Origin: Emticicia sp. CRIBPO
GTDB lineage: Bacteria; Bacteroidota; Bacteroidia; Cytophagales; Spirosomataceae
NCBI RefSeq assembly: GCF_009905725.1
Contig: NZ_JAAAKV010000001.1
Coordinates: 558,001-622,000, forward strand
Reading direction: 5' to 3'
Length of the DNA stretch: 64,000 nucleotides
Positions 20,258 to 57,665 of the stretch are shown here, piece after piece. Made by a program: the position numbers and the translations under genes. Within the stretch, counting starts at the first letter, position 1, and every line of letters begins with the position of its first letter. Under the pieces are notes generated by a model. It saw nothing but the letters and a program-made list of their open reading frames with translations, searched no databases and was not told where the DNA came from.

Positions 20258-22186
20258 CTAGTCGAACCATTTCTCATCATTTGCTATCTTACCAACGTGT
20301 ATTATTTCTCGATTTGCATATTGCCTACAAGCTTTTTCTGCCATTGAAGCGATAATTCTCGGATACGATTTAGCATCAGCCATAATATTCTTTGAAATTT
20401 CATAAGGTATAATAACTTTATTTTCATGGTAATGTCTATAAAAAATATAATCATGAAAGCTGAAATTGGGAAGAGCAGAATAAACTTCTTTTATTCTATT
20501 TAATAAATCAATATCATTTGGATTGCGAAAATATTCGCCTACTAAATAATCAAATTTCACTTCATATATTTCGTCCGAAAGTAAATTCGACTCACCTCCT
20601 ATTTCCTTATAAATAAATTCATCTCTTGTCGATTCTGAAAGTCTAAAACTGATCATATAGTTAAACATTTCGTTGCTATTACTTCCTTTAAGAAAAGTGA
20701 TCATTTCAGAAGATTGCATTGAATTAAATGTGGACAATTCAGCGGTACTTTTAAGTGTCCTTATAATTATTAGACATTCTTCTTCACTGAGTTTGGATAT
20801 CAAATCGGAAACTACATTGTACATCTCAATTATTGTCTTTGAGGTTGCCCATGTCAAATACACACAGAGCTTGTAATTAATCTCTTTCGAAAAATTTAGC
20901 TGAGTTCTCCAAAAACTCAAATTGCCAGATTTCATTCTCGCACATCTCGTTCTTTTGCATAAAGAAATATGTAAATTGCCCAGTTCGCTAAACGATTCAT
21001 ATTTTTCCTCTTTTGATTTAATGCCACTAGAAATAATCGCAATTGCATTAATTATCCAAGTATCTCCATAATGCTGTCTAAGAACCTCTACAAATGAATC
21101 CCAATTTTCTAATGCTACTTTCCATTCAATCACCGGCCGGTCGAGTATTGGTTTTAATTCATCTGCTACCTTCTTAATTCCTAAATCAATTTCGTCATTT
21201 ACTTTAAAATCAAAGTATTTTTCACTTGAGGAATAGGAACTCAAGGTCTGAGATAAATACTCTAAAAATGAAATATTTTCGTTCTCGCTTTTTAAAACAT
21301 TTTTCAATGAATAAGTATTCAACAACATACTTAAAAATTGAATGCCACTTTCTAACTTTCTCCTAGCAGTAGCAAATAGGTAGTTCTTAAGAATTCCATT
21401 TAGTAGTGTCTCTTTTAAATAACGTGATTCTTCCAAAACATCAAAACGATTACTTTGTATTAATATTTGTATTTTTCTCTCTTGATAATCCAAAGAATCT
21501 TTCATTACAATTTCACCAAGGAATCTTGTATCTAGTTTGTAGATTATTTGAAGTAGATGTCCATATTCAAGCCACTTAATTAAATCATTATTTGAATAAT
21601 TTAATGCTTCCCTTTTCCATACATTTTCGTTATCAAGGGGATTATTTCTTATCACTCCAATCAGCTCAATTGCATAATCTTTTTTAGGAAATAATTTTAA
21701 TTGTTTAAAGCATTCATTAAAGATTTCAGTTCTTCCACATTCATTGGGTAGCAAGATTGGTTCATTACTAGCGTATCTACTATCTTGATTAATAATACTA
21801 CCTATATTAATTCCATTCAAGATAATTTCAATTACATCTTTCAGTAACACTGGATATTGAGTAAAAACCCAGTCAGAAAGTATTTGTGATGTAATTAGCC
21901 TTGGATAATTTGTGTACCTTAAAACCTTATCTTGTTGCAATTCTCTCAGCTCATGGATTAACATAGGCAACTCTCCTTTATCGAAACAGCCCGAAAAAAA
22001 CCTGACTACATTGTGCCAATAAAAGTTTCTAGCAATCGCATTAAATCTTTCGGGCTTTGACCCATTCTTCTCTCTTCCCACCGGAGCATAGGGTGAAGTA
22101 TTATATAAATATTTCGCACAAAAATACTCTCTTAAGGGCTGTACTTCAAATTCATAAGTCCCTTGTACCCTGAAACAAGGGCACAA
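20258..22186 (-). CDS. C-terminal part of nuclease-NACHT protein (frameshifted)
   Basis: The frame opens at a TTG, but its true beginning is the RVQGTYEFEVQPLREYF segment at about 22170, which continues the upstream gene. This FEVQPLREYF block is the conserved region that follows the NACHT module in STAND proteins. The remaining 600 residues are helical, rich in Leu and Lys, and likely form the sensor repeats. Joined with the upstream frame the protein would be about 1249 residues. The whole region is strongly AT-rich. As it stands this fragment would not be translated normally, unless the frameshift is an error of the assembly. Confidence 0.6.
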   Translation of the reverse strand: MCPCFRVQGTYEFEVQPLREYFCAKYLYNTSPYAPVGREKNGSKPERFNAIARNFYWHNVVRFFSGCFDKGELPMLIHELRELQQDKVLRYTNYPRLITSQILSDWVFTQYPVLLKDVIEIILNGINIGSIINQDSRYASNEPILLPNECGRTEIFNECFKQLKLFPKKDYAIELIGVIRNNPLDNENVWKREALNYSNNDLIKWLEYGHLLQIIYKLDTRFLGEIVMKDSLDYQERKIQILIQSNRFDVLEESRYLKETLLNGILKNYLFATARRKLESGIQFLSMLLNTYSLKNVLKSENENISFLEYLSQTLSSYSSSEKYFDFKVNDEIDLGIKKVADELKPILDRPVIEWKVALENWDSFVEVLRQHYGDTWIINAIAIISSGIKSKEEKYESFSELGNLHISLCKRTRCARMKSGNLSFWRTQLNFSKEINYKLCVYLTWATSKTIIEMYNVVSDLISKLSEEECLIIIRTLKSTAELSTFNSMQSSEMITFLKGSNSNEMFNYMISFRLSESTRDEFIYKEIGGESNLLSDEIYEVKFDYLVGEYFRNPNDIDLLNRIKEVYSALPNFSFHDYIFYRHYHENKVIIPYEISKNIMADAKSYPRIIASMAEKACRQYANREIIHVGKIANDEKWFD

Positions 22187-24006
22187 ACTCTCTCCTGAAG
22201 AACATGAAATAGATTATCCGCAATGTCCGTTTTGTGTCCCTCTTTTATTAAATATTGCTTTAACCGTTGCTTTAATTCATCAATTCCAATACTTCCGCTA
22301 TTACCTAATAACTCAGCTTCAGAATGCAAAATCCAAGCAAGATATTGATGTATATCAATTATTAAGTCTCTGTGATCTCTAATAGTGTAGTTTTTTTCCG
22401 ATTCTCTGTTAAAAAACAATTCAATATAGCTATCATACAAAGCGGTTCTCTTATTCGGCAATGATTCCCCTCTAGTCCTCAATAAACTTATAAAAATTGC
22501 TAATTGCATTGGGCTTTTGGCTAAATCCTTTAGGTGAGGTAGTTGTAGTTTTTCTTCGACTAACCTTCTAATTTCAGCGGATTCTCTACTATCTAACTTA
22601 CTAGCCTTTATCCATTTTTCGACGTATTCTTTGGTAGTTTTCGTGGTAATATCTGTCAGTTGAAAATGGGGATATTCATCAACTGAAAATCCGATAGTAT
22701 CTGAAAAGGCAGCTGGACGTGAAGTAACTACTATTTGAATAGATTTTGAATTCTCCTTTATCCTATTTATCCCTTTGTTTATAAATTCTATTACTTCTTT
22801 TCTAATTTTCAAATCTGCTATTTCATCAAAACCATCAAAGACAAATAATGCAGAACTATTTTTAAGAATTACATTTAGATCATCTGAATTAAAACTATCA
22901 GATTGTGAATGATATAACACATGTCCTATTAAGAATGATTCGAGCGAATTTCTTGAAATTGACTTAAACTGCTCTTCATTTAATCTACTTTGATATGGAT
23001 TTTTGTTCTCAACCCACATTGCGACGTGCCTTAAGTCTATCTTAAAAGGAAGTCGAATAGGAGTAACTCTCATGTGCTCCGGGATCAGTTGAACATCACT
23101 TTCCTTATTTAGGAGTCTGGCTCTGTGAACTTGGCATATAAATTGAGAAATTGTTGACTTCCCCTGACCCGGCCCTCCTTCGAGTAGAACCCGTTCTAAT
23201 TGACTTTGTACTTTGGGATGAAGAAGAAAACTAGCCGCCCCAACATTTTCTATTTCATCAAAATGAGACAAATCTTCATTATAAAATGACCGCCTGTAAC
23301 TTCGTTCGAATAGATCAAGCATTTTTTTCAACAATCTATCTTTTTCGTTAAGCTTTTTGATCCTGATTGGAACATCCGTATACAAATCCAACAATTTATT
23401 TTGCAAATCAATTTGCCTAAATTTAACTTCGTTATCAATTGAATATTGATCAGCTAAATAAGCTTTAACTATTGATTCTCTCCTTTCTTTACTTTCATTT
23501 ATCCCTTGAAACACCAGGGAATTTAGCACATCTTGTCCATTAATTAGTTCAGGAAATGACCATCTAAATATAGAATCTTTTTCTACTAATCTACATAGAT
23601 CATCTCTCCACCAACACAATGAAGAGATAGAAATTTTATCCTCTAGGATTTTGTTAATTTTATCTTTTGAGCCATTATCTAAATGAGCGGTTCCTTTTAA
23701 ATTAGTAAGTAAATAGTATCTTTTAGCTCCTCTTGTAGTAAGTTCATCAACTTTAGGGGCTTCTTTATTAATTACATCACTTAGCCATCTATAAGTATCT
23801 TTGATACTATTTGGATCTCTAACATATTTGACTTGAAATACATAGAAATCTTTCTTATTTGAATCCATTAAGTATGCAATCGCATCTCTTCCACCGTCAG
23901 GTTGCCCAACAGGATACGATTGTGAATCAGGAAACTCTTTTGCTATCAATGTACTGCAAAATTCTTGAAATCTTTCATCTCCTAAGTTTTCAAATTGGTA
24001 ATCCAT
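22132..24006 (-). CDS. N-terminal part: Mrr-like nuclease + NACHT NTPase (frameshifted)
   Basis: Residues 1-170 are a restriction-endonuclease-like (Mrr type) domain with GQPDGGRDA (Asp37, Asp41) and QVK (Gln58, Lys60). Next is a NACHT NTPase with Walker A LEGGPGQGKST at 275-285 and the NACHT-type Walker B LFVFDGFDEIAD at about 385-397. After Ser612 the frame runs out into 12 non-matching residues. The proper continuation lies in the other frame (20258-22170), so one base appears to be missing near 22170. Nuclease-NACHT proteins of this kind are known or suspected antiphage sensors whose nuclease kills the infected cell. The gene is AT-rich and alone, as expected of a mobile defence gene. Confidence 0.75.
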   Translation of the reverse strand: MDYQFENLGDERFQEFCSTLIAKEFPDSQSYPVGQPDGGRDAIAYLMDSNKKDFYVFQVKYVRDPNSIKDTYRWLSDVINKEAPKVDELTTRGAKRYYLLTNLKGTAHLDNGSKDKINKILEDKISISSLCWWRDDLCRLVEKDSIFRWSFPELINGQDVLNSLVFQGINESKERRESIVKAYLADQYSIDNEVKFRQIDLQNKLLDLYTDVPIRIKKLNEKDRLLKKMLDLFERSYRRSFYNEDLSHFDEIENVGAASFLLHPKVQSQLERVLLEGGPGQGKSTISQFICQVHRARLLNKESDVQLIPEHMRVTPIRLPFKIDLRHVAMWVENKNPYQSRLNEEQFKSISRNSLESFLIGHVLYHSQSDSFNSDDLNVILKNSSALFVFDGFDEIADLKIRKEVIEFINKGINRIKENSKSIQIVVTSRPAAFSDTIGFSVDEYPHFQLTDITTKTTKEYVEKWIKASKLDSRESAEIRRLVEEKLQLPHLKDLAKSPMQLAIFISLLRTRGESLPNKRTALYDSYIELFFNRESEKNYTIRDHRDLIIDIHQYLAWILHSEAELLGNSGSIGIDELKQRLKQYLIKEGHKTDIADNLFHVLQERVCALVSGYKGLMNLKYSP

Positions 24007-51499: not shown

Positions 51500-51922
51500 T
51501 TATCTATTTAACCTCAATTCACAATAGCTTTCCGGGGTATAAACACTTAGTAAACTATTTTTATAGTCTTTTATATTTCTCGTCAATATCAAATCAATTT
51601 CTCCACTCATTTCAGCTGAATAATTTTGCAATGCATCTTCAAAATCTTTAAATGCTGAAGCCAATGCCATTTTTATTACTCCTTTATCTATGGTAAGAAT
51701 TTCCACTATCGAGATCAGACCTGACAATTTTTCAATTACCTTTTCATGCTTTGCTCCTTGCCTTAGCAGATAATAAACATTACTCAAAATAACAGGAGTA
51801 ATAAATCCTTTGATTTCTTTTCTTTCACATAGAGAAAAAATTTCTGCAGCATGTTCCGAAAAAGGCTGCCTGTCAAAAAAGAAATCAAGAATAACATCAG
51901 TATCAATCAGAACTCTTACCAT
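51500..51922 (-). CDS. PIN-domain toxin (VapC-like)
   Basis: This 140-residue PIN-domain protein has the acidic residues of the nuclease site: Asp6 (VLIDTDVILDFFFD), the Glu/Asp in FKDFEDALQNYSA and the final Asp in ILTRNIKDYK. VapC toxins cleave tRNA or rRNA and are held inactive by the partner antitoxin. It overlaps the antitoxin gene by one base, as in typical operons, and is AT-rich like other mobile pairs. Confidence 0.82.
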   Translation of the reverse strand: MVRVLIDTDVILDFFFDRQPFSEHAAEIFSLCERKEIKGFITPVILSNVYYLLRQGAKHEKVIEKLSGLISIVEILTIDKGVIKMALASAFKDFEDALQNYSAEMSGEIDLILTRNIKDYKNSLLSVYTPESYCELRLNR

Positions 51923-52170
51923 TATATATATTTTTCAGATAACCTTTTACCAAGTTCTTTTTTATAATCAAAGTCATTAGGGGCTTTAAATGATCCTTTT
52001 AAGGCTTTAACTGTAGGACTTAATTCTATTTCACTTTTACTTTCATCGCTGGTTATTAACTTAAGATAATTCTCAATGATATCCGACAAACTACGTTCTT
52101 GTGCCAAAGCGTATTTTTTTGCTTTTTCAATAACCGTATGCTCTATAGTCAAAGTTAATTTTGTATTCAT
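51922..52170 (-). CDS. Antitoxin of PIN toxin (DUF6364/RHH-like)
   Basis: This 82-residue protein starts at the second of two in-frame ATGs, MNTKLTLTIEHTVIEKAKKY, which matches the DUF6364-type antitoxin N terminus. The first ATG (52182) would add four residues. It has a short ribbon-helix-helix-like domain and a charged C-terminal tail (KKELGKRLSEKY) for toxin binding. A palindrome 37 bases upstream may be its operator. Confidence 0.75.
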   Translation of the reverse strand: MNTKLTLTIEHTVIEKAKKYALAQERSLSDIIENYLKLITSDESKSEIELSPTVKALKGSFKAPNDFDYKKELGKRLSEKYI

Positions 52171-52206
52171 GGTTTGTATCATTTATTTTACTTTCAGGAA
52201 TAACGA

Positions 52207-52307: not shown

Positions 52308-53147
52308 TCAAAACGCTGTCGACAAAGTCACTTCTTTCCACTTTTCGAGATCTCCGTTTACTTCCTGTATTTTCTTCTGAGCTACGCTGTAAGCATCTTC
52401 TCCTAAAAATAAATGTAGGGCAGGATTTTCTTCCAGGCTCATTTTTATCATCGCATCTGCAGCCTTTTCAGGATCACCCGGCTGGTTGCCGTCCATCTCG
52501 TCCTGGTGAAAAGCCTCCGATTGCCTCGCTGCTTCATAGGCTTCAATGGAGCGGGCAGGTGTCTTAACCGAGTCTGAACTCAGGAAACTGGTACGGAAAT
52601 AACCCGGATACACCAGCGTGACCTTGACTCCGAAGCCTGCAGCTTCTGCAGCCAGTCCTTCGGTCAAACCCGAAACGGCAAATTTAGTGGAACAGTAGAT
52701 TCCCCAGCCCGCAAAATTGGCGGTATATCCACCGATGGAAGAGATATTGAAGAAATGCCCTCTCTGCCTGGCCCTGAAATGCGGCATCACCTGGCGGATC
52801 ACATGCAGGAGACCGAAAACGTTGACATCGTAATTAGCCCTGGCTTCTTCATCAGAGAGTTCTTCCAGCGTCCCCATCTGGCCGTACCCGGCATTGTTGA
52901 CTACGACATCCAGTCCGCCGAAATGGCTGATGGTCTTCTCAACAGCTTCTTTCACACTGGGTTCACTGACTATATTGACTTCCAGCGGAAGAAAATCTGC
53001 CGACGACTCCCCTATTTGTTCTTCCAGGCTGCTCAGTGTTCTCGAAGTAGCGGCTACACGGTAGCCTTCAGACAAAAGCTTTTTAACCAGGCTCAGTCCC
53101 AGGCCTTTGGAAGCACCTGTCACGAACCATACTTTGTTTGCATTCAT
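52308..53147 (-). CDS. Short-chain dehydrogenase/reductase
   Basis: The start at 53147 (MNANKVWFVTGASKGLGLSL) is the canonical SDR beginning; the open frame has 15 further codons without similarity. The 279-residue product has TGASKGLG, VVNNAGYGQMG, ISSIGGY and YCSTK, the intact YxxxK. It is a classical SDR of unknown substrate. It follows the AraC-type regulator gene by 84 bases on the same strand and is probably regulated by it. Confidence 0.85.
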   Translation of the reverse strand: MNANKVWFVTGASKGLGLSLVKKLLSEGYRVAATSRTLSSLEEQIGESSADFLPLEVNIVSEPSVKEAVEKTISHFGGLDVVVNNAGYGQMGTLEELSDEEARANYDVNVFGLLHVIRQVMPHFRARQRGHFFNISSIGGYTANFAGWGIYCSTKFAVSGLTEGLAAEAAGFGVKVTLVYPGYFRTSFLSSDSVKTPARSIEAYEAARQSEAFHQDEMDGNQPGDPEKAADAMIKMSLEENPALHLFLGEDAYSVAQKKIQEVNGDLEKWKEVTLSTAF

Positions 53148-53231
53148 AATGATATTGTTTAAATGATGCAGCAAAATTACTTTGTACAGCATCGCCCCGG
53201 CTAGCGGGATTCAAACAATAACTTGCAAAAT

Positions 53232-54131
53232 TCAAACAGCCCGGTATTGCGAAGGTGTCAATTGAATATTTTTCTTGAAAAAGTTATTAAAATGAGCAGG
53301 TTCTTCAAAACCAAGACTGTAAGCTATCTCAGAAATGTTCCAGTCAGTGTGCTTTAAAAGCACTTTGGCTTCCTGCGTAAGACGCTCCGATATGATCTCA
53401 GAAGTGGTTTTTTGTGTGGTTTCTTTCAGGGCCCTGTTGAGGTGATTGACATGAACAGCCAGCTGGCCTGCGAAGTCTGAAGCAGAGCGGTAGGTGAACC
53501 GCTGGCGGGCGTCTTCAATAGGAAACTGCCTTTCGAGCAATTCGAGGAATAAAGAAGAAATGCGTTTGGAAGCATTGGAATGATGATTCACCGAGAGGTT
53601 GGCCGGTTGCATCTTCATCGCTTTGTGTATAAGATCAAAGACCAGGTTCCTTAAAACATCATATTTATAGGCATAATCTGACTCGATTTCCTCAGTCATC
53701 GAGCGGTAAATCGCACTGATGGTCTCCACCTGGTCATCGCTGATCGCAAATACCGGTGTGCCCTGAGGCTGAAAAACGGGATAGTCTTTCAACTGACCGA
53801 ACTGATGAAAAAAAGCTTCAGTAAAAACACAGAAAAAGCCCGTCTGCTGTTCGTCAAGCTGTTCCCAGTTGTATGGAATCTGGGGATTGGCAAAAAACAA
53901 GGCCTGTTTTTCAATGTCAACGACCTTATCCGCATAATGCACCCTGTTTTTACCGATGATCAGGCTAATCTTAAAATAATCCTTGCGGCTATATGGAATA
54001 GGTTTGGCCCGGCAACCCATAAAATCGTCCAGCTTAAAAACATTAAAATGACCGATCTCCTTTTTCAGGTTCTCAGGCATCCAGTTCAGCTTGGATTGAT
54101 AAAACGCTTCGATGCTTTCTACTTTGCTCAT
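53232..54131 (-). CDS. AraC-family transcriptional regulator
   Basis: This 299-residue protein has a cupin-like N-terminal domain (about 30-120) and a C-terminal AraC HTH pair. The HTH segments are SDFAGQLAVHVNHLNRALKE and WNISEIAYSLGFEEPAHFNN, ending in NIQLTPSQYRA. Regulators of this type often control an adjacent oxidoreductase, here the SDR downstream. The gene is not near any LuxR-type regulator for the LuxI-like gene behind it. Confidence 0.88.
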   Translation of the reverse strand: MSKVESIEAFYQSKLNWMPENLKKEIGHFNVFKLDDFMGCRAKPIPYSRKDYFKISLIIGKNRVHYADKVVDIEKQALFFANPQIPYNWEQLDEQQTGFFCVFTEAFFHQFGQLKDYPVFQPQGTPVFAISDDQVETISAIYRSMTEEIESDYAYKYDVLRNLVFDLIHKAMKMQPANLSVNHHSNASKRISSLFLELLERQFPIEDARQRFTYRSASDFAGQLAVHVNHLNRALKETTQKTTSEIISERLTQEAKVLLKHTDWNISEIAYSLGFEEPAHFNNFFKKNIQLTPSQYRAV

Positions 54132-54198
54132 ATTGCAAAGTTACAAGATTCAAACATAATGTAGAGAGATATTAAAATATAAATAGTCTTGAAATTAT

Positions 54199-54837
54199 TT
54201 ATACTTCATTGATCTTTCTTATGATCTTATCTCTTTCAATCTCATTAACTGTAAAAAAGAGGGCTTGTGAAATATCATCAGGTGTTTTTATCGGTTCTCC
54301 AAGTACACTAAAGTCCCAACCAGAAGATTTTCTAAGTTGCTCAACTAGTCCAAGGGTGGTTAATGAAATGAAATTTGTAACGTTATTTTTTAATCCAAAT
54401 TCTATTACCTCCAGCAACATTAGCGGAAGCACTTTATGGTTTGTCTCTTCTATAAATTTATCTGAGGCACAAAATCTAGTAATTTCCCAGATTTTATTTG
54501 AATTTGGTATATCGATTAAATCTATTGCTTCGGCATATCTTTCCGCCAACATATACGGTGTGTCTGTTGAAATAAGTCTGCAGCAAGCGTTCACTTGCCT
54601 ATTCTCATTCAGATTGATAACATAAGTAGTATTTGTTTTATCATATTTATCATATTCTTTTTTACCTATTTTTTTTAATCCAGTCTTCCATTTCCTTTTT
54701 CCAATAAACACATCGTATCTTAATTTATGCATTGAATTCAACACATCTTTATTAAAGTTTTCACGTCTATCGATGATAAAAGGAGATAAGTTCACTTTTT
54801 GGTTAGTTAAAGGATATGCAAATTTTACACACAACAA
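54199..54837 (-). CDS. LuxI-family acyl-homoserine-lactone synthase homologue
   Basis: This 212-residue protein has all the invariant residues of autoinducer synthases in the right order and spacing: Arg40 and Phe44 (LRYDVF), Trp50 (RKW), Glu61, Asp63 and Asp66 (EYDKYD), Arg87 (CCRL), Glu118 and Arg121 (IWEITRF). The fold also has the C-terminal RKSSGW block. LuxI enzymes join S-adenosylmethionine and an acyl chain to make AHL signals. They are known mainly from Proteobacteria. No LuxR gene is in the window. The gene is AT-rich against its neighbours, which supports horizontal transfer. Its activity is an inference. Confidence 0.82.
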   Translation of the reverse strand: MLCVKFAYPLTNQKVNLSPFIIDRRENFNKDVLNSMHKLRYDVFIGKRKWKTGLKKIGKKEYDKYDKTNTTYVINLNENRQVNACCRLISTDTPYMLAERYAEAIDLIDIPNSNKIWEITRFCASDKFIEETNHKVLPLMLLEVIEFGLKNNVTNFISLTTLGLVEQLRKSSGWDFSVLGEPIKTPDDISQALFFTVNEIERDKIIRKINEV

Positions 54838-54900
54838 TAAATATACGAAACACTTTACATAAATACCAACAAATCCAAAACATTATAGGAGAATAAAAAC

Positions 54901-54930
54901 CCGACATTGCATGCAACATCTCTACAAAGG
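54901..54930. repeat. GACATTGCATGCAACATCTC solo repeat
   Basis: The block CGACATTGCATGCAACATCT followed by CTACAAAG is a third copy of the end block of the composite repeat (5803 and 9501). It lies in the 415-base gap between the LuxI-like gene and cydA. The rest of the gap is AT-rich with no gene. Confidence 0.6.
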
Positions 54931-55252
54931 CCCGATCGAAGCTGAGATCAATCACGAATTCGCTCAATCTCTAAATCAGAACCCACAAATAAAAAAATCA
55001 CTTTCTCCATCCATATATCACATTCCTGACCTAACTTGCAGCATCAGAATCCCACCGCTGAGCAGCCTGATTTCAGCCTTCAATTCCGGTTCATTTCTTT
55101 CTGCTCGAACCTTACATCGACCCTCATAAAAAAGAATGGTTTCGAAGGAAACCCTCAGGCAAAACCGCCACAAAGACGTGTATCCAAGGTTTGTCAGGAT
55201 GGTGATTTGTCAACAGGCTTTCCCGATTTTTTTAAATTAAAACTAAGAAATC

Positions 55253-56626
55253 ATGAATGTTGAAGTATTGTCCCGTATTCAGTTTGCTTTTACTATCGCC
55301 TTTCATTACATCTATCCTCCTTTAAGCATCGGTCTCGGTCTAGTGATGGTCCTCATGGAAGGCATGTACCTCAAAACCGGTCAGAAAGTTTATGAGGATA
55401 TGACCAAATTTTACACTAAAATATTTGCCCTGATCTTCGGCATCGGCGTGGCCACCGGCATTGTGATGGAATTTGAATTCGGCACCAACTGGGCCGTTTA
55501 CTCTAAATATGTCGGGGACATTTTCGGGAGTGCACTGGCAGCTGAAGGTATTTTTGCCTTTGCCCTTGAGTCCGGATTCCTGGGTATCCTGTTATTCGGA
55601 TGGAACAAAGTGAGCCCCAGGGTGCATTTCTTTTCTACTGTGATGGTTACACTGGGTTCCATGTTTTCAGCCATCTGGATCGTGGTAGCCAACTCCTGGC
55701 AGCAAACACCGGCAGGCTATCACATCGTCGGGGAAGGCACCAATGCCCGTGCAGAGATCACCGATTTCTGGGCGATGGTGTTTAACCCTTCTTCTGTGGA
55801 GCGTATTCTTCATGTCTGGACAGGGGCTTTCATTGCCGGGGCATTCCTGGTGGTGAGCATCAGTGCTTATTACCTGATCAGGAAAAAACACGTTGATTTT
55901 GCTCAGAAATCTTTCAGAATCGCCTTTTATGTGGTAGCGATTTCCTCTGTGGTTCAGTTGTTTATCGGACATCGTTCGGCCGAGGTGGTGGCCGAATACC
56001 AGCCCGCCAAACTGGCCGCTATGGAAGGACATTTCGACAGCCTGGCGGTGGCCGACATGTACCTGTTCGGGTATGTCGACAAAAAGAATGAGAAAACACA
56101 TGGCCTGAGCATTCCCAAAGGCCTGACCATGATGATGCACCAGGACCTGACTACTCCGGTCAGGGGACTCAAAAGTTTTAAGCCGGAAGACCGTCCCACT
56201 TCGCCCAACATCGTTTTCCAGACCTATCACATCATGATCAGCATCGGGATGTTCCTCATCGCATTGTCCATTTTCGGGACGTACATGCTATGGAAGAAAA
56301 AGCTGTTTGACCAGCCCTGGCTTCTACAGGTTTTTGCCTGGAGTGTCCTGCTGCCGCAAATTGCCAACCAGGTGGGCTGGTATGCTGCAGAAACAGGTCG
56401 CCAGCCATGGGTGGTTTACGGCCTGCTGAGAACCTCAGATGCCTTGTCAAAGGCGGTGACCGCCGAGCAGGTCATGTTTTCGCTGATCATGTTTACCGTC
56501 ATTTACACCTTGCTGTTTGCTTTGTTTATCTACCTACTGAATAAAAAAATAAAGCACGGGCCTTATTATGAGGATCATTCAGAACACAGTCCGAAATTAA
56601 AAACCATTGCAGACAACATCCAATAA
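55253..56626 (+). CDS. cydA: Cytochrome bd ubiquinol oxidase subunit I
   Basis: This 457-residue protein has about nine transmembrane helices and the heme ligands: His18 ([11 protein letters not shown]) and the GRQPW motif at 382-386. A Q-loop region follows helix 5. CydAB reduces oxygen to water with quinol under low oxygen. The Q-loop is of the short type, normal for Bacteroidota. cydB follows after 4 bases. Confidence 0.95.
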
Positions 56627-56630
56627 AACT

Positions 56631-57665
56631 ATGGCTACTTTTTTAGGTTTAGATTACGCCACCTGGTGGTTTCTGGTCATCGGTGCAGTATTTACAGGAT
56701 ACGCTATTCTTGACGGCTTCGACCTCGGAGCCGGGGCCCTTCATTTGTTTTTCAAAAAAGAAGAAAGCCGCAGGATCGCCATCAACGCCATCGGCCCGGT
56801 ATGGGACGGCAACGAAGTCTGGCTGGTCATCGGCGGGGGAGCCTTGTTTGCAGGATTTCCGGCGGTTTATGCTACAGTCTTCTCGGCTTTTTATGTGCCG
56901 TTTATGCTCTTTCTGTTTGTTCTCATTTTAAGGGCCATTTCCATAGAATTCAGAAGCAAAGAACCCATGTTCTGGTGGCGGGGCATGTGGGATATCTCCT
57001 ATTCCCTGTCCAGCTCTATGATCGCTTTCCTGCTGGGTGTGGTGTTGGGAAACCTGCTGCTGGGCATCCCGATCGACAAAGAAGGGAATTTCACAGGTTC
57101 CCTGGTCTATTTCCTTAACCCTTATTCGGTTCTGGTGGGAATAACCACCCTGTCCCTTTTTATGATGCACGGAGCCATTTACCTGGTCATGAAAACAGAA
57201 AACCGCCTGTACGCCAAGCTGACGATTCTGGTGCGGAATACGACCATATTTTTTATCATTTGTATGCTTTTGCTGAGTTTTTATACTATTTTGTATGTCC
57301 CTCACCTGGCGTCCAACATCCGGGCCAATCCCTGGATGTTCATCATGCCGATCCTGATGGTGCTGAGCATTGCGAACATTACCCGGGAAATCACCCGAAG
57401 GAATTACCTTTACGCCTTCCTTTCTTCAGGATTTACCGTGAGTTTGCTGTTGCTGCTCGTAGCCGTTGAGTTATATCCCAACATGGTGGTCTCAACACTC
57501 GACCCGGCTTTTAACCTGACCGTCCATAATGCTTCAGCTTCTGAAAAGTCACTGAAAATAGTCCTGATCTTTGCAGCTGTCGGCGTTCCGCTGGTTTTAA
57601 CTTATACCACTTTTGTCTTCTGGACGTTTAAAGGGAAAGTGAAACTGGAGGAGCATAGTTACTGA
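56631..57665 (+). CDS. cydB: Cytochrome bd ubiquinol oxidase subunit II
   Basis: The start at 56631 (MATFLGLDYATWWFLVIG) follows the cydA stop by 4 bases; the open frame upstream overlaps cydA and adds nothing useful. The 344-residue product has eight to nine helices, with GYAILDGFDLGAGALHLFF and GPVWDGNEVWLVIGGGALFA, both conserved in CydB. It forms the bd oxidase with CydA. No cydX or cydCD gene is adjacent. Confidence 0.95.
   Translation: MATFLGLDYATWWFLVIGAVFTGYAILDGFDLGAGALHLFFKKEESRRIAINAIGPVWDGNEVWLVIGGGALFAGFPAVYATVFSAFYVPFMLFLFVLILRAISIEFRSKEPMFWWRGMWDISYSLSSSMIAFLLGVVLGNLLLGIPIDKEGNFTGSLVYFLNPYSVLVGITTLSLFMMHGAIYLVMKTENRLYAKLTILVRNTTIFFIICMLLLSFYTILYVPHLASNIRANPWMFIMPILMVLSIANITREITRRNYLYAFLSSGFTVSLLLLLVAVELYPNMVVSTLDPAFNLTVHNASASEKSLKIVLIFAAVGVPLVLTYTTFVFWTFKGKVKLEEHSY

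Follow-up and report, generated by a model that had tools for sequence, protein, structure and literature searches.

LasI, TofI, TraI, BjaI and RpaI, all AHL synthases of the PF00765 family, are paired with LuxR-type receptors. The orphan AHL synthase is also a known kind, exemplified by AgpI of the myxobacteria. According to the accessible text of the study that describes it (PMC7862692), E. coli expressing AgpI of Archangium gephyra produced AHLs, the genome of A. gephyra itself shows no apparent receptor, and both AgpI and VitI, from Vitiosangium, were shown to be active. The luxI gene that we describe here in Emticicia sp. CRIBPO resembles these two, as that text presents them, in being a solo gene of the LuxI type, with a G+C content below that of its genome and found outside the usual AHL lineages. 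It differs in that relatives from Chelatococcus and Vitiosangium are 56-70% identical to AgpI, while none of the relatives listed for our protein exceeds 33%, and in that our protein is a predicted synthase from the Bacteroidota, a phylum where such a gene is unexpected.

Reports of AHLs in this phylum do exist, as far as the accessible portions of the papers tell. Cyclobacterium marinum and Arenibacter palladensis were AHL-positive by biosensor, one of the Bacteroidota isolates belonging to Cytophagales (PMC10052519), and Porphyromonas gingivalis gave trace OC8-HSL and has an HdtS-like ORF (PMC7300016). An AHL was reported for Tenacibaculum maritimum, yet its genome, according to the available excerpt, holds no AHL synthesis gene (PMC5561996), and a 2024 paper states in its accessible part that Flavobacteria have no described LuxRI homologues (PMC10764354). 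The Bacteroidetes of biofilm metagenomes appear with LuxR and without LuxI in the available text of PMC6000730, work that an excerpt of PMC11069264 cites as a source on genes for LuxI and LuxR from Nitrospira or Bacteroidetes. Dyadobacter is credited with LuxR solos and dialkylresorcinol genes, luxI being named in the accessible text only for Variovorax (PMC9430724), and the LuxI of particle metagenomes is ascribed mostly to Proteobacteria, with Sphingobacteriales named among the AHL-producing isolates (PMC7843935). In the parts of the literature searched, which took in few subscription papers, we found no description of a luxI gene in a Bacteroidota genome.

The window, that is, the whole stretch of 64,000 nucleotides that was analysed, covering positions 558001-622000 of its contig, contains the gene in the following setting:

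54199-54837, minus strand: luxI-family gene, predicted AHL synthase, 212 codons from TTG 54837 (PF00765, phmmer, AlphaFold2, Foldseek)
53232-54131, minus strand: AraC-type regulator, 67 bases downstream of luxI (HTH_18, 3e-19)
52308-53192, minus strand: short-chain dehydrogenase (SDR), downstream of araC (PF00106, 159 bits)
55253-56626, plus strand: cydA, cytochrome bd oxidase subunit I, divergent and upstream of luxI (PF01654, 547 bits)

The original prediction of a frame at this place, lying between an AraC-type regulator and cydA, is borne out on both counts, and luxI, araC and the SDR gene come in that order on the minus strand, 67 and 39 bases apart. The genome (6.06 Mb in 39 contigs, completeness 97.81) carries a Bacteroidota marker in a SusC/RagA protein (828 bits) and has luxI as its single PF00765 gene. 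Relatives of this SusC/RagA protein on plasmids are spread over 134 records, 124 from Bacteroidota genera, 2 from Gemmatirosa and 8 not listed by name. One could suspect that luxI belongs to another bacterium and entered through contamination during assembly or binning, given that its composition is unlike that of the genome and that it is the sole copy in the family sample of 222 genomes. We regard this as highly improbable, however, since luxI lies at about 612 kb of an 866,625-base contig, the contamination estimate is 0.59%, and the neighbouring AraC-type protein has paralogues at 49-59% identity elsewhere in the same genome.

The assignment to the LuxI family, questioned here against other GNAT-like families, held up well. 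The protein matches PF00765 (Autoind_synth) with 93.6 bits, versus a cut-off of 24, over profile positions 7-181 of 183, and it stays under the cut-offs of both the GNAT family PF13444 (20.6 bits) and FeeM (PF21926, 16.3 bits with a cut-off of 27, 77 bits less than for PF00765), which leaves it outside FeeM. The FeeM/PF13444 acyltransferases have the GNAT fold and some residues in common with it, but the two look-alikes of this type that were checked are without Trp at position 50. Among NCBIfam models, the top two, with 79.7 and 76.2 bits (cut-offs 250 and 292), represent AHL synthases of the TraI type, so the protein falls outside the TraI equivalog NF052393 (79.7 versus 250 bits); an exosortase-associated acyltransferase model matches weakly (28.4 versus a cut-off of 111.95 bits) and a transposase model gives a sub-cut-off 17.5 bits. 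AHL synthases also make up 6 of the 7 matches in a phmmer search of PDB sequences at E<=1, with LasI the best at 1.1e-19.

A PF00765 match over the cut-off is by itself no proof of LuxI identity, because two GNAT look-alikes of the phylum also pass it: L005 (33 bits), which keeps several of the residues but has Arg at the W50 position and Gly at T120, and L002 (27.9 bits), which deviates at W50, E61, E118 and R121. The residues were examined in an alignment of 22 rows, made of the window protein and 21 of the best 80 of 305 relatives, where R40, V43, F44, E61, D63, D66, Y72, R87, E118 and R121 are invariant (22/22) and W50 is kept in at least 90%. A Trp at 50 is not universal, since a proteobacterial relative (L029) has Tyr there. 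For EsaI, the conserved residues named in the accessible text of PMC5131480 are F28, W34, D45, D48, R68, E97 and R100. The EsaI-numbered set is found in the window protein as R40, F44, W50, E61, D63, D66, R87, E118 and R121, EsaI itself being outside the alignment; these are the nine LuxI residues, from Arg40 to Arg121, that had been claimed from the start, and all are present, eight of them invariant. The set takes in R24 and E43 (EsaI numbering), which are further conserved LuxI residues. As regards acyl length and the choice between ACP and CoA, T160 or T161 may stand at the place of EsaI Thr140, again with EsaI outside the alignment. On sequence grounds, the high PF00765 score and the complete set of residues together argue strongly for LuxI identity, and the protein is a genuine LuxI-family enzyme and very probably an AHL synthase.

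An AlphaFold2 model of the protein (pLDDT 84.8, pTM 0.84) points the same way. Residues 1-12 of the model are below pLDDT 50 and its first strand starts at residue 18, and the N-terminus of LasI agrees, so GTG 54795, giving 198 aa, is the likelier start of luxI. When compared with the PDB through Foldseek, ranks 1-12 are all AHL synthases (BjaI, LasI, TofI, MesI, RpaI and EsaI, TMq 0.80-0.68), with BjaI at TMq 0.80 and LasI at TMq 0.78 and TMt 0.84. Within the first 50 of 198 matches at E<=0.001, on which these figures rest, the best non-LuxI chain among ranks 13-24 is a GNAT at rank 13 (TMq 0.57) and FeeM comes at rank 19. The model thus appears to adopt the LuxI version of the GNAT fold, with the predicted fold and pocket residues of LasI, TofI, TraI, BjaI and RpaI. 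The structural check proposed with the original prediction came out in its favour, AHL synthases being matched first and the SAM pocket being judged by residues rather than coordinates. This fold match is not independent of the sequence result, because the alignment given to AlphaFold2 consists of LuxI relatives. These data also bear on a LuxI relative with changed chemistry, one that would make an N-acyl amino acid or another amide and no homoserine lactone. Identities of at most 33% to relatives among the matches listed, together with the weak FeeM similarity of 16.3 bits, would be in keeping with such a shift; but the SAM-pocket residues, W50 included, are kept, PF00765 exceeds FeeM by 77 bits and FeeM appears only at rank 19 of the fold search, and we find this chemistry improbable.

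Unlike LasI, TofI, TraI, BjaI and RpaI, the window protein has no LuxR-type receptor that we could find in its genome. The absence of LuxR noted for the vicinity extends to the whole genome, where the autoinducer-binding domain PF03472 gave 0 matches at E<=0.001 (an E. coli control was positive), so that the cognate LuxR of a LuxI/LuxR system is not found there. No PF03472 match in the order sample is over the cut-off either, the one match in 390 genomes having a sub-cut-off 21.1 bits. In the nearest neighbours in the tree, from Chelatococcus (L027) and Oceanibaculum (L028), a gene for a LuxR with PF03472 (110.6 and 107 bits) lies immediately upstream of luxI, and since these are paired, the window luxI may have arrived unpaired or may have lost its partner afterwards.

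Some AraC-family proteins bind small ligands, and a complete quorum circuit with another kind of receptor could be imagined around the adjacent AraC-type regulator, 67 bases downstream of luxI and on the same strand. A repeated motif at this locus is relevant here:

54141-54156, minus strand: TGTTTGAATNTTGNAA motif, copy 1, between the luxI stop and the araC start, candidate AraC operator
53223-53238, minus strand: TGTTTGAATNTTGNAA motif, copy 2, exact, at the araC end and upstream of the SDR gene

These are the only two exact copies in the 64 kb, one before araC and one before the SDR gene, and none precedes luxI. Allowing up to 2 mismatches brings the count to 4 versus 1.87 expected, a number reached by 12 of 100 shuffles, for a motif chosen post hoc from repeats. 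Near matches occur at 6 of 9 AraC loci (8 of congeners and the genome's own paralogue, with L115 and L116 left out), and lie beside the AraC gene in 3 of them by raw count (L114, L118 and the own paralogue, L117). We put forward TGTTTGAATNTTGNAA with modest confidence as a candidate AraC operator, and because it precedes araC and the SDR gene, these two look like a separate unit rather than the missing receptor of luxI. Moreover, homologues of the AraC-type protein are present in congeners without luxI. A circuit of this sort therefore seems improbable to us, and the suggestion of an unknown signalling pair gains little. No luxI was found beside the 11 other AraC loci, with about 1.5 kb read on each side, and an SDR gene accompanies one of them (L110, 34%). 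On the other flank, cydA finds a match in 1 of 9 congeners, at 41% identity, and as this holds for cydA and cydB alike (55253-57665, plus strand), the neighbourhood of luxI is variable within the genus. Comparison of gene order with the congeners accordingly gave no boundaries for an insertion. A TANNTTTG box was searched for upstream of luxI and is absent; one sigma-70-like site (9/12) lies just upstream of the gene, where such sites occur at chance frequency.

The base composition of the gene sets it apart from its genome. Among 135 ORFs drawn from the window and nine 20-kb stretches, luxI has the lowest G+C (31.3%, versus a mean of 44.7%, SD 3.9; z -3.4), which confirms the AT-richness originally noted, and the fourth lowest GC3 (26.9%, mean 50.5%). 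Around it lies the following block, beyond which G+C is 42-46% over 54900-55199:

54100-54899, no strand: AT-rich block around luxI, 100-base windows of 22-41% G+C

G+C, GC3 and the AT-rich block all fit a gene acquired from elsewhere. Such a gene may be silent or inactive: the transferred synthase could be decaying, its frame still intact and of no use to the host. The gene is an orphan, AT-rich, found in one of ten species of the genus and without a receptor that we could find, and axenic culture of A. gephyra gave no detectable AHL, according to the accessible text of PMC7862692. The frame of luxI, however, is full-length, and its catalytic residues are intact despite the great distance from its relatives, so we consider silence or decay rather unlikely.

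Other observations were made in the same stretch. When the DNA of 54100-54900 was searched against plasmids, the only match was of 62 bases (54154-54215), covering the 3' end of luxI; they are 79.4% identical (E 5e-3) to a region without annotation on a plasmid of Rhizosphaericola mali. In another AT-rich patch, near luxI, a DUF6364 gene and a PIN-domain gene (51500-52182, minus strand) overlap by one base and are probably a toxin-antitoxin pair. Farther away, an AT-rich gene pair at 20258-24006 (minus strand, G+C 31-33%) encodes a 624-aa NACHT protein (PF05729), with one weak PADLOC match of 20.2 bits, and a 642-aa protein with no Pfam match at 1e-5 and no PADLOC match at 1e-3; it looks like an acquired defence-type island.

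How rare the gene is can be seen from genome samples, which overlap from genus through relatives, family, order and class to phylum. At E<=0.001, PF00765 matched 1 of 10 genomes of the genus, 1 of 222 of the family (the other 221 being without a match), 3 of 59 in the relatives sample (2 over the cut-off), 3 of 390 in the order (2 over) and 16 of 395 in the phylum (10 over). Matches above 80 bits are the window gene in every sample and, in the phylum sample, one further genome (G404). The window protein as query matched 2 of 395 genomes of the class, the second at 19.9 bits in a 772-aa frame. Sixteen weak PF00765 loci in other genomes of the phylum were considered, 4 by eye and the other 12 by score and frame length: L005 proved to be a 256-aa GNAT, L002 is also a GNAT and has a long C-terminal part, and L003 and L016 resemble integrases; none of these four was accepted as LuxI.

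The locus in G404 is as follows:

13301-15405 of contig C44 (19.7 kb), locus L020: luxR (plus strand) facing two tandem luxI (minus strand)

It is like the window luxI in its phylum, by database grouping, and in its PF00765 scores (82.1 and 91.6 bits), and unlike it in the adjacent LuxR (PF03472, 57.6 bits); its two LuxI proteins share 23% and 21% identity with that of the window. The contig has 33.6% G+C, versus 31.7-34.4% in 6-kb stretches from three further contigs in that bin, with 26% in the luxI part, and a locus of this type occurs in 1 of 61 genomes of G404's family. It may be genuine or a binning error.

No close homologue of the window protein was found in any of our searches. Single-protein scans of genome contigs and viral contigs returned no relative, a scan of viral contigs with an alignment returned 1, and a pattern-based genome scan, biased by patterns built in part from rhizobial proteins, returned 305, the best 80 of which are at most 32% identical and bear proteobacterial names in 79 of 80 titles, the remaining one being titled 'Bacterium'. 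On plasmids, all 552 matched records are below 60% identity, and the matches listed (30 of 453; 60 of 552) are at most 33% identical, with proteobacterial names; no relative over 33% identity is thus present among the matches listed for plasmids and the genome scan. Matches at E<=0.01 came from five phage records, and chromosomal genes are present in the one of them that was inspected. In Acinetobacter phage MD-2021a (by annotation) and IMGVR_UViG_3300037791_000022 (by eye), luxI sits beside ordinary-looking chromosomal genes (L025, L123), and because of such neighbours both may be bacterial sequence in virus collections. In a tree of 40 rows (the window protein, 32 of the 80 loci, 5 plasmid or phage records and the 2 G404 proteins), the window protein groups with Chelatococcus and Oceanibaculum (85/81), yet it sits on the longest branch (4.89) and has an odd composition.

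What the data show is that the protein belongs to the LuxI family, with its residues and predicted fold, and that the gene is foreign in composition, rare and accompanied by zero PF03472 matches in its genome. Of the three options first raised (a transferred orphan synthase, a relative with a new substrate, an unknown signalling pair), the transferred orphan is the best supported, with no PF03472 in the genome, presence in 1/10 of the genus and 1/222 of the family, and the lowest G+C. We consider it probable that luxI is a horizontally acquired LuxI-type AHL synthase kept as an orphan, its signal being meant most likely for LuxR-bearing neighbours and not for self quorum sensing, because no LuxR is recognisable in the genome. 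Activity of the enzyme, which is probable, is inferred, as are its product and the release and target of the signal. By family analogy, the enzyme would bind S-adenosylmethionine in an N-terminal pocket (R40, F44, W50), while an acyl chain from acyl-ACP or acyl-CoA would enter the tunnel of the GNAT fold; the chain would be joined to the SAM amino group and then lactonised, yielding an AHL and methylthioadenosine, and the AHL would diffuse out of the cell.

Bacteroidota make iso-branched acyl groups, and BjaI, the closest fold match, was solved with isovaleryl-CoA, a link to iso-branched AHLs that is suggestive only. A speculative extension, doubtful for now, is that an active orphan LuxI turns iso-branched acyls (isovaleryl-CoA or iso-acyl-ACP) into unusual AHLs that serve as a one-way means to steer or jam LuxR-bearing neighbours, and that sporadic genes of this sort explain the AHL activity reported for some Bacteroidota isolates.

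An intact chromosomal luxI makes it possible to clone and assay such a gene from this phylum, and it adds a phylum to those with orphan AHL synthases. If active, it would provide a signal from a cell without the usual receptor, and this bacterium may send a message that it is unable to read itself.
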